From a virus: a stretch of DNA of 30,181 bases. A program made the position numbers and the translations under genes. Below, in pieces: positions 27,104 through 29,563 of the stretch. The notes below the pieces were generated by a model. That model was not told the DNA's origin. It saw only the letters and a list, made by a program, of their open reading frames with translations, and made no database searches. The stretch is from positions 1-30,181 of the IMG/VR virus record IMGVR_UViG_3300042523_000294; one strand, 5' to 3'. Positions within the stretch are counted from its first letter, which is position 1, and every line of letters starts with the position of its first letter.

Positions 27104-27307
27104 ATGAGCACCACCAATTACGTTTACGAAGTTCGCGGCCCCGAAACCTTCGAGCACGTCACCAGCCTGCGCTTTGCCAAGGCTCTTGCCGCCAAACTTG
27201 CCCGCGAAGGCAACACGGTGGACGTGGTGCGCTACATCCCTGGCCCCGATGGCAAGTCGAAAACCAACGTTGGTCGCGTCCACACCAGCTTTCCGCGTCA
27301 CGCATGA
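27104..27307 (+). CDS. Small early protein, 67 aa
   Basis: An unrecognised 67 aa protein with an alternating strand/helix pattern (NYVYEVRGPETFEHVTSLRF, AKALAAKLAREGNTVDVVRY), ending in a basic tail with GKSKTNVGRVHTSF. It has a GGGAGAGAC leader like the gene before it and overlaps the HTH gene by ATGA. The function is unknown; the order of structural elements would suit a small nucleic-acid or protein binder. Confidence 0.7.
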   Translation: MSTTNYVYEVRGPETFEHVTSLRFAKALAAKLAREGNTVDVVRYIPGPDGKSKTNVGRVHTSFPRHA

Positions 27308-27513
27308 CCCCCGACGCCCTCGAAGACGCCATCGAAACCCTCGGTTGGACAACCGGGGGCCTGGCGCGCTTTCTGAACCTGCCGCGCAATCGCGTGCGAA
27401 ACTGGATACGCCGCGACGTAACGTATCACATTCCCCCCGCCGTCTCCGCGTGGCTTCTCCGCCGCGTGGCGCTGCACGAACAGGCGATGCGGGATGATCC
27501 GCCGCCGTCATAG
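27304..27513 (+). CDS. Helix-turn-helix DNA-binding protein
   Basis: A 69 aa protein with a compact HTH: LEDAIETLGWTTGGLARFLN (7-26) then LPRNRVRNWIRR as recognition helix, followed by IPPAVSAWLLRRVALHEQAM. The pattern G---GLA--LG----RV-NW--G---IPP-V--WL is common in small phage and plasmid regulators that bind operators or replication sites. The last gene of its operon, it could act on the TGCGT repeats at 26767-26823 or on the GTCCC array just to the right. Which site it binds cannot be read from sequence. Confidence 0.8.
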   Translation: MTPDALEDAIETLGWTTGGLARFLNLPRNRVRNWIRRDVTYHIPPAVSAWLLRRVALHEQAMRDDPPPS

Positions 27514-27603
27514 CGCGCCCCACACAAACCCAATCCCAAACCCCACCGTCCCAGCCCCTATGGCGCACAGCAGCCACAGCGCGGCGGCTTCTGGGGTGGT
27601 CAT
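27508..27603 (-). CDS. Possible 31-codon membrane peptide
   Basis: A 31-codon frame on the minus strand, MTTPEAAALWLLCAIGAGTV then GFGIGFVWGAL, a single hydrophobic helix. The start lies next to a GGGACA repeat copy and its end overlaps the HTH gene stop by 6 bases. No strong ribosome site is present, so it is only a candidate. Confidence 0.4.
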   Translation of the reverse strand: MTTPEAAALWLLCAIGAGTVGFGIGFVWGAL

Positions 27604-27604
27604 C

Positions 27605-27750
27605 GGGACACGCCCAAAAATGCCAGACACGCCGACGGGACAGGGGGATATAACGTAGTTATATATCCCCCCAGTGTCCCGCCTCTGTCCCGATGTCCCA
27701 TGTCCCGACGCGTCCCGGCGTGTCCCGAAATCTGTCCCGATGGACGTCCC
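27605..27750. repeat. GTCCC iteron-like array
   Basis: Eight copies of (T/C)GTCCC start at 27675, 27686, 27694, 27701, 27711, 27721, 27733 and 27745, mostly 10-12 bases apart, and two inverted copies (GGGACA) lie at 27605 and 27637. This 150-base non-coding block sits between the HTH operon and the next plus-strand gene, beside the replication operon. Confidence 0.8.
27637..27680. repeat. Palindrome inside the repeat array
   Basis: GGGGGATATA (27643-27652) and TATATCCCCC (27662-27671) form a 10-bp perfect stem with a 9-base loop; GGGACA and TGTCCC on its two flanks extend it with a 3-base bulge. The AT-rich centre could melt, act as a protein-binding cruciform or stop transcription. Confidence 0.75.
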
Positions 27751-27788
27751 GGCGGACATACAGCACAAAATAGTTGCGCCAACATGGT

Positions 27789-27794
27789 TATAAT
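27789..27794 (+). promoter_or_regulatory. TATAAT -10 box next to the array
   Basis: An exact TATAAT precedes the 75-79 aa gene, giving an expected transcription start near 27801. No good -35 lies at 16-18 bases, so a bound activator on the adjacent GTCCC copies may substitute. Confidence 0.5.
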
Positions 27795-27813
27795 GACATA
27801 CAAGCGGAGAAAC

Positions 27814-28053
27814 ATGGAGGCGCACATGCGCGTAGACACCCACATCCCAATCCCTGATGGAACACTTTCTGGCCAAGGTCGAGCACCTAAATACCCTTTC
27901 GCCAGCATGCCGGTCGGAGGGTCGTTCGGCGTTGATCCGTCCATGGCTGCGAAAGTCGCAACCGCCGTCCGCATTTGGAAATCGCGGCATCCGGGCTGGG
28001 ATTACCGCACCCGCAAAACATCCGAAGAATTCCGCGTTTGGCGTGTCGCTTGA
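27814..28053 (+). CDS. Small protein, 79 aa, beside the array
   Basis: An unrecognised 79 aa basic protein (from the ATG at 27814; ATG at 27826 with GGAGG 5 bases upstream is equally likely and gives 75 aa). The order is IPIPDGTLSGQGRAPKYPFA, then MPVGGSFGVDPSMAAKVATA, then WKSRHPGWDYRTRKTSEEFR. SMPVGGSF then AAKV--A---W then R--R-T-EE-RVWRV resembles small regulators encoded beside phage replication genes. It is transcribed away from the repeat array and converges on the AAA ATPase gene. Confidence 0.7.
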   Translation: MEAHMRVDTHIPIPDGTLSGQGRAPKYPFASMPVGGSFGVDPSMAAKVATAVRIWKSRHPGWDYRTRKTSEEFRVWRVA

Positions 28054-28056
28054 TGT

Positions 28057-28082
28057 GAGGCGGGGCTTCACTGTCCCGCCTC
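28057..28082. terminator. Shared hairpin between convergent genes
   Basis: GAGGCGGG and CCCGCCTC form an 8-bp perfect stem with a 10-base loop immediately after the 79 aa gene. The stop codon of the convergent AAA ATPase gene lies inside the loop. There is no T-run, but it may act as a barrier to both transcripts. A TGTCCC copy lies at 28072-28077. Confidence 0.5.
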
Positions 28083-29180
28083 CCTGACCGCCCAAACCCG
28101 CCCATTATTCGCCGCCACAAGGTGCTTCCCCTGCAACTCGGCCACGGCGCGCTGGAACGCCTTCTTCTTCGTGTCCTGATTGTCGCCCACGGTTCGGGTG
28201 TAGAACGCTTCCCTCCACCATTGTTCGGGGATGCTGGCCACGTTCTGCGGCACCCCTGCAAACCCGTTAGCCCCAGCCCGCGCCAGAGCGTCATGCAGGG
28301 CTTCCATGGCCACGCTGGTATGACCGGATAGGCGGGGTGCCTTAAACGCCTTGGCGGCCCCTTGGGCGGCCCGCACGAGGCATGTCGTCACCATCTCCCC
28401 GTGCCGGTTCTCCCCTACCTCGACCACTTCAAGCGTGAAGTGGATCACGTCGCCTTTCTTCATGTCGCGTTGCTTGACTACCGTTGCAGTCCTCACGTCG
28501 CTCCCTTCCTCGTCTGCAACCTCAATTTCGGTGTCGATGGCGGCGCGGAGGCTGCTATGCCCACGGGCACCCTTGGCCGCATCCTTGCCGCTGTGATGGA
28601 TAAACAGGACCATCGCCCCGGTTGCCTCGCGGATGGCGTCCATGTTCGTCACCAGTGCGCCCATATCCTCGCTGGCGTTTTCGTTGCCGCCGGCCATGGC
28701 GCGGGCGAGGGTGTCCACGACAATCAGCTTGATCGCCACGCCCATACGCTCGGCTGCGGTGGCTGCGGCTTCGATCACGCGCGGCGTATCGGCCTCCGGG
28801 TCTAGTAAGTTCACCTGCGACGGAATGGCCGCGAAATAGACGGGTAGGCCGGGGGCGTGTTCGGCACGCCAGATTGCCACGCGGTTACGGAACCCGTCGC
28901 CACCTTCAAGTGCCAGGTAGAGCACCCCGCCAGCTTCCACGCGGCGCCCGTGCCAGTCGAAGCCGGCGGCTACGTGCAACGAAATATCCGTGGCAAGGAA
29001 CGTCTTGCCGGAGTTGCTTTCGCCATACAGGACAGCCGACGACTTCTGGACAAGCAGCCCTTGCACAAAATCCTTGGCGTCGGTGACGGGGTGGATATCG
29101 TCAATGAACAGGATCGGTAGGGGTGACGGGTCGGCGTAGGACGCATGCGCGCCCCATGGATTACGGCTCAACTGGTTCAT
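28068..29180 (-). CDS. RepA-like AAA ATPase, replication helicase
   Basis: A 370 aa RecA-fold ATPase of the AAA_25/RSF1010 RepA type, which acts as a DNA helicase or helicase loader in plasmid and phage replication. Visible are Walker A GESNSGKT (53-60), the GGVLYLALEGGDGFRNR segment (84-100), Walker B KLIVVDTLAR (151-160, Asp156), VLFIHHSGKD (191-200), and the loop GARGHSSLRAAIDTEIEV (205-222). The C-terminal 100 residues are helical and variable (DTKKKAFQRAVAELQGKHLV). Start chosen at the ATGA overlap with the 128 aa gene. The helicase activity is inferred from the family. Confidence 0.9.
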   Translation of the reverse strand: MNQLSRNPWGAHASYADPSPLPILFIDDIHPVTDAKDFVQGLLVQKSSAVLYGESNSGKTFLATDISLHVAAGFDWHGRRVEAGGVLYLALEGGDGFRNRVAIWRAEHAPGLPVYFAAIPSQVNLLDPEADTPRVIEAAATAAERMGVAIKLIVVDTLARAMAGGNENASEDMGALVTNMDAIREATGAMVLFIHHSGKDAAKGARGHSSLRAAIDTEIEVADEEGSDVRTATVVKQRDMKKGDVIHFTLEVVEVGENRHGEMVTTCLVRAAQGAAKAFKAPRLSGHTSVAMEALHDALARAGANGFAGVPQNVASIPEQWWREAFYTRTVGDNQDTKKKAFQRAVAELQGKHLVAANNGRVWAVREAGQ

Positions 29181-29563
29181 CCCCGCCGCCTGCGCCCGTG
29201 AAGCGCGTTCCATTCGTTTCGCAGTATAGGCACGATTTCATCCCACGACAGGACGCCGCCATTCGCGTTGCTGGCGGCTTCTTCGATTTCGTGCTTGAGC
29301 GCGGCAGCTTCGATCAACGGACGGACGGCCCATTTGATGGCCGTCTCTGCGTTGGCGAGTTTCAACCGATGCGCGCGCGCCTGGTCCCGCATGGCGTGGT
29401 GCAACCGCGCCTGTAGCCCGCTGCGGTCCACCGTCGTCACGTTCGACACCCACGCCTTGATTGTGTCGGATGCGTCGGCGTCACTCATGTCGTCACGGGC
29501 CACGATGGTGCCGAGTTGCGTGGCCGCGTGGTGCAGGTGGATGGGATCGAGACGGTGCTTCAT
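29177..29563 (-). CDS. Helical replication-operon protein, 128 aa
   Basis: An unrecognised 128 aa helical protein between the AAA ATPase and two small genes, linked by ATGA on both sides. It has HHAATQLGTIVARDD, an IKAWVSNVTTVDRSGLQARL segment, a long helix AHRLKLANAETAIKWAVRPL, and an acidic IEEAASNANGGVLSWDEIVP followed by a basic end (HGRRRRG). A replication accessory or loader is a fair guess by context only. Confidence 0.7.
   Translation of the reverse strand: MKHRLDPIHLHHAATQLGTIVARDDMSDADASDTIKAWVSNVTTVDRSGLQARLHHAMRDQARAHRLKLANAETAIKWAVRPLIEAAALKHEIEEAASNANGGVLSWDEIVPILRNEWNALHGRRRRG

Follow-up and report, generated by a model that had tools for sequence, protein, structure and literature searches.

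What is the function of a dense array of short repeats that surrounds a hairpin beside the gene of a RepA-like helicase? The question is raised by a virus genome that carries P22-type portal and coat genes and that was analyzed here over the full 30,181 bases of its IMG/VR record (hereafter the window). We approached it from the composition of the array, from its recurrence in relatives, and from its relation to the neighboring helicase, and then weighed the readings that these observations allow.

Array, hairpin and helicase in the window

The array comprises eight direct copies of (T/C)GTCCC on the + strand, which start at 27675, 27686, 27694, 27701, 27711, 27721, 27733 and 27745 and occupy 27675–27750; read on the − strand, which is the helicase strand, these iterons appear as CGGGACA or CGGGACG, and we use CGGGACA as the word of the window. 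Two inverted copies, CGGGACA on the + strand, lie at 27604–27610 (outer) and 27636–27642 (inner). The inner copy abuts a central hairpin at 27643–27671, a perfect 10-bp inverted repeat (GGGGGATATA at 27643–27652, TATATCCCCC at 27662–27671) with a 9-nt loop that sits between the inverted and the direct set of iterons. All of these elements had been listed in an initial annotation of the sequence and were found again at 27604–27750, the span of the whole array including the hairpin. The intervals of mostly 10–12 bases given there hold roughly: The spacing between the eight direct copies is 11, 8, 7, 10, 10, 12 and 12, so that two intervals are closer. The assignment to non-coding DNA stands, as no supported gene covers this stretch, while a further copy, TGTCCCG at 28072–28078 (− strand) within the final codons of the helicase, had been missed. 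The density is exceptional for this genome: CGGGAC occurs nine times in 160 bp, whereas outside the array no 6-mer of the 30 kb record exceeds five copies in a stretch of this size, and the top 6-mer of 20 block-shuffled control genomes reaches four to five.

The adjoining gene (28068–29213, − strand) encodes a RepA-like hexameric helicase of 381 aa, which we propose to be a self-recruiting initiator. Its membership in the AAA_25/RSF1010 RepA family follows from a RecA-fold core, the AAA_25 profile of Pfam (E 1.3e-38) and RSF1010 RepA as the closest solved structure, both by sequence (PDB) and by fold. In the AlphaFold2 model, residues 297–376 (28086–28325, − strand) form a separate domain of three helices and a two-strand wing (H-H-H-E-E, pLDDT mostly >85), the proposed iteron reader. 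The same winged-helix fold was predicted from 50 C-termini modelled alone, and Foldseek matched the isolated domain to winged-helix proteins (CRP family, ORC, Hel308) at weak scores (best E 0.04). By sequence, the domain has no homologue in PHROGs, and its matches in the PDB are weak and irrelevant, e.g., 6qbi (a lipoprotein; 0.00095), which most likely reflects coiled-helix similarity. The window helicase is a stand-alone protein; most relatives measure 600–850 aa and carry an N-terminal primase part, which is a Prim-Pol in p101 of Rhizobium phage 16-3. No primase gene was recognised in the window record, and no RepC-like Pfam match was obtained among the window proteins scanned, which cover part of the ORFs.

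Between helicase and array lies an ORF of 75 aa (27826–28053, + strand) that is found at this place only in the window: It is absent from the near relative L002 and from all other loci, and neither the 161 loci searched nor the phage collection contain a homologue. Because the array of L002 begins directly at the helicase stop codon, the ORF looks like an insertion beside the first iteron, by which the window array is displaced from the helicase end by ~320 bp. The array of one further locus (L020) is likewise displaced.

Recurrence of the layout behind helicase genes

A search for the array in related phages, which the initial annotation had suggested as a check, showed that the layout recurs behind the helicase gene and that the word differs among phages. 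In IMG/VR relatives down to 33% identity, a short-word array flanks a hairpin directly behind the helicase stop codon, and for 34 of 41 non-redundant IMG/VR helicases (<90% alike; two ties) the densest 7-mer array of the locus is the one at the helicase 3′ end. The unchanged test was applied to an independent set of 80 bacterial-genome and prophage loci (78 usable), in which a 320-bp segment 3′ of the helicase was compared with ~35 control segments each. This segment surpasses every control at 47 of the 78 loci; eight or more copies of a single 6-mer were counted in 30 of the 78 helicase segments versus 3 of 2607 controls. Five circular records of plasmids or phage-plasmids were examined as well, and each has its record-wide array maximum at the 3′ end of the helicase. 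Among cultured phages, strong arrays follow two helicase genes, with about 20 copies of CGTGAC after the Prim-Pol/AAA_25 gene p101 of phage 16-3 and ten copies of GTATAA after the helicase of Roseobacter phage CRP-831, and BcepGomr has a weak array with a hairpin. No array was found directly 3′ of the helicase in the Caulobacter RW, Mycobacterium Dove and Pantoea AAM37 phages and in ~30 of the 78 genome relatives. A DNA search of phage records with the array region returned the helicase core in Roseobacter phages only.

At least 15 different words were found. They include CGGGACA, CGGACA, TGGAGACAT, CCAGACAT, CGTTACG, TACCGCA, TGGGAAA, CGTCCGAA, GGTCTACAT, TGCACA and others, and also forms such as GGGACA, CGTTAC, GGTCTAC and CGTGAC. 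Some loci deviate in the placement of the array. A strong CCCGAAA array with a hairpin lies ~5 kb 3′ of the helicase in L027, and a strong TGCACAAA array with a CACCCTTTAGGGGTG hairpin ~4.1 kb 3′ of it in L028; the sequences would fit either a relocated origin or an altered gene order. In L009 (4050–4290) the coding sequence of the helicase is extended at its 3′ end and contains the array, with the result that the repeats are also translated; the region at the locus end of L008 (7168–7395) was grouped with this case.

The hairpin takes a fixed place in this layout. Iteron orientation flips across it, with a ratio of 229:57 before and 41:69 after the hairpin (odds ratio 6.8, P 1e-15). Of 125 regions 3′ of a helicase, 34 contain a hairpin centred on CTTTAG or CTAAAG, compared with 5 of 1652 control segments; a hairpin was counted if three or more further pairs extend the centre C-TTTA-G or C-TAAA-G. 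The centres of other relatives are GTA, GAA, TATA or similar, and the hairpin of the window, the counterpart of the CTTTAG type, has an AT-rich centre instead. The AT-centred melting site of the initial annotation is hence apt for the window; it does not extend to most relatives, in which the hairpin is G+C-rich and its short loop contains TA. Judged by these sequences, the recurring feature is the hairpin rather than AT-richness. As single-stranded DNA, the array region of the window has a more stable fold than its shuffled versions (z −4.2), which inverted iterons would lead one to expect; no known structured RNA of Rfam was matched. A hairpin can occur without an array: In the Polaromonas plasmid pPNAP03 (L168), the DNA ~44 bp 3′ of the helicase has a CCACCCCCTTTAGGGGGTGG hairpin but no clear iteron array.

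Co-variation of word and helicase tail

Word similarity is associated with similarity of the C-terminal domain if the helicase core is held constant (partial Mantel r 0.32, P 0.001, n = 74), and is not associated with the core if the C-terminus is held constant (r −0.01, P 0.55). The association of word and tail reaches a partial Mantel r of 0.49 in the genome set alone, and it holds in the viral and genome subsets as well as after thinning to cores of <60% identity. Domain and array might be inherited together simply because they are linked, which would mimic co-variation; two kinds of case therefore carry particular weight.

The first is a natural swap among freshwater phages: The DNA of L045/L047 and L053/L055 is ~90–95% identical and their helicase cores are near-identical, but the last ~110 aa (starting near residue 25 of the C-terminal region) are only ~50% identical, the word changes from GGGACAA in the former pair to GGTCTACA in the latter, and homology is regained at the next gene (~94% identical). 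The second is the persistence of a word in arrays that have otherwise diverged: The helicases of the window and L002 are 98% identical, C-terminus included, and both use CGGGACA, whereas their arrays and hairpins are unalignable. Across unalignable arrays, mean word similarity is 0.09 below a tail score of 0.25 and ~0.25 above it. Unalignable arrays with a shared word argue, from few close pairs, against linkage, and co-variation and natural swap together support the C-terminal domain as the probable specificity determinant.

A candidate origin and its alternatives

In our assessment, the array is in all likelihood the replication origin of the phage, and the adjoining RepA-like enzyme would act as helicase and initiator in one, with its C-terminal winged helix reading the words. 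The initial annotation had already pointed to an origin with iterons beside a RepA-like gene, and this assignment is now backed by position, conservation in relatives, co-variation with the helicase C-terminus and the precedent of SaPI Rep discussed below. Array, position, recurrent architecture, co-variation and cassette swap are observed and the wing fold is modelled; from these we infer iteron binding, helicase loading, hairpin priming and origin function. Mechanistically, the winged-helix tails would bind the short words (CGGGACA in the window), by which several helicase molecules would align on the direct and inverted sets. The opposed sets would put helicase on either side of the hairpin, and one hexamer or two facing hexamers would be loaded at the hairpin between them. 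Extruded or single-stranded, the hairpin could then serve as the entry site at which unwinding and the first priming begin. Each phage lineage would possess a word of its own, matched by its C-terminal domain, and the two would constitute an exchangeable specificity cassette. GC skew lends this reading no support: It shows no turn at the array in the window, and in the plasmids its extremes are not generally located at the array.

Because operators typically contain repeated sites with dyads and the gene of a 69-aa YdaS/MerR-like HTH protein (27304–27513, + strand) adjoins the array, the latter might alternatively be an operator through which this protein or an autoregulating helicase controls replication or early genes. 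Initiator autoregulation would fit an origin as well, and we consider an operator unlikely: The array lies 3′ of the helicase, the genes downstream are varied, no sigma-70-like promoter was found in 27300–28200, and the word tracks the helicase C-terminus. The HTH protein itself, which the initial annotation had named as a binder, was discarded on its phylogenetic distribution, as homologues occur in merely 4 of 161 loci while arrays occur in most; it is a neighbor and probably not the partner of the array. We regard it as very unlikely that transcription of the helicase operon ends at the hairpin and that the repeats are incidental or related to termination. Hairpins directly 3′ of a gene would suit a terminator, and the stem is followed by some T in a few relatives (16-3, CRP-831). 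However, none of 49 TA-loop hairpins is followed by a T-run (at least five T in 8 nt), and they are therefore not intrinsic terminators, for which such a run should directly follow the stem. The sole terminator-like match near the array is a different one, weak and at chance level, and a lineage-specific word that occurs up to ~20 times and co-varies with a protein domain would be superfluous for termination.

Partition sites also have short-word arrays in both orientations, and two plasmid records carry parA. A centromere (parS), or a packaging or recombination site in place of a replication start, is nevertheless highly improbable: No parA or parB was found among the window proteins tested, the arrays of the two parA plasmids lie at the helicase 3′ end, 8–11 kb from parA, and, here too, the word tracks the helicase domain. 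That the words are short and G+C-rich could finally suggest low-complexity or chance repeats in G+C-rich DNA that are linked to the helicase end. This is hardly credible in view of sparser shuffles and control segments, of A+T-rich words elsewhere (GTATAA in CRP-831) and of the identical word in the unalignable arrays of the window and L002.

An origin read by its own helicase can be compared with several known systems. The oriV of RSF1010 (IncQ) combines iterons, which are long (~20 bp), with the hairpin priming sites ssiA and ssiB. RSF1010 RepA shares the helicase fold and is the nearest solved relative (1G8Y, 1NLF), but the iterons are bound by a separate protein, RepC, and the winged helix of the window helicase lies beyond the end of the aligned RepA chains. 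The alpha protein of phage P4 unites, like the protein proposed here, helicase and origin binding; it recognizes short iterons in both orientations (ori/crr) via a C-terminal winged helix, but the helicase is of the SF3 type and ori and crr lie apart. In SaPIs, the iterons are arranged in two sets. A like layout, an initiator helicase whose C-terminal domain binds short iterons right behind its own gene, is described for SaPI Rep in the summary of Ubeda et al. 2007 given in PMC7581432. SaPIbov1 Rep is related to the DUF927 protein Cch and SaPI5 Rep to the Primase_Cterm/D5 type (PMC7581432). The window module has the array 3′ of the helicase gene, in this case displaced, and would work like a SaPI Rep-ori; in our comparison it is not a member, because Pfam gives AAA_25 alone and neither DUF927 nor a D5/Primase_Cterm helicase. 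It differs in its engine, a RecA-fold AAA_25/RepA helicase, and modules of its type have a strong, often CTTTAG-centred hairpin between the sets. In SCCmec, the C-terminal domain of Cch2 binds direct repeats (AAGTG) downstream of the helicase gene, and the putative origin also contains inverted repeats and potential hairpins (PMC7581432). This resembles the module proposed for the window, but there are three repeats of 5 nt, the helicase is of the D5 type with 3′–5′ polarity, and the element is not a phage. In the Sulfolobus plasmid pRN1, replication requires a stem-loop directly behind the replication gene, whose sequence varies among plasmids while the structure is kept (PMC4234260). The likeness lies in the pairing of a replication protein of Prim-pol, helicase and winged-helix parts with a 3′ stem-loop; the helicase is, however, of the SF3 type, the stem-loop has 100 nt, and no iteron array is shown. 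Compared with SaPI, SCCmec and pRN1, the window module differs in its RecA-fold engine and in that it unites both features, downstream repeats and stem-loop.

Our literature search found no origin of a RepA/AAA_25 phage. More tentatively, and with somewhat less than even confidence, we envisage a large undescribed class of RecA-fold helicase-initiators with a private word per tail, a CTTTAG-type hairpin between inverted sets for loading and priming, and tail and array swapped as a cassette, the origins being mutually exclusive in co-infection in the manner of incompatibility groups. Few tailed phages have a known origin; if the proposed assignment is right, that of any phage with this widespread helicase could be located from sequence at the 3′ end of the helicase gene. 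The natural tail–word pairs (at least 15 words) constitute a data set on DNA reading by a winged helix and suggest swappable, mutually orthogonal replicons, and the recurrent CTTTAG hairpin points to a shared, unexplained step, either loading or priming.

A conserved DnaA-box-like cluster is absent from the window and present in one freshwater phage clade (L044, L047, L050, L053, L056, L057, L067, L072 and L075, in the last from 8399). Its three to four sites, TTATCCACA twice in direct orientation, one inverted TGTGGATAA and GTATCCACA, lie ~1.31–1.47 kb 3′ of the helicase stop in apparently intergenic DNA. The cluster is a possible second or auxiliary origin element in that clade, and host DnaA may take part there because the clade carries these boxes.
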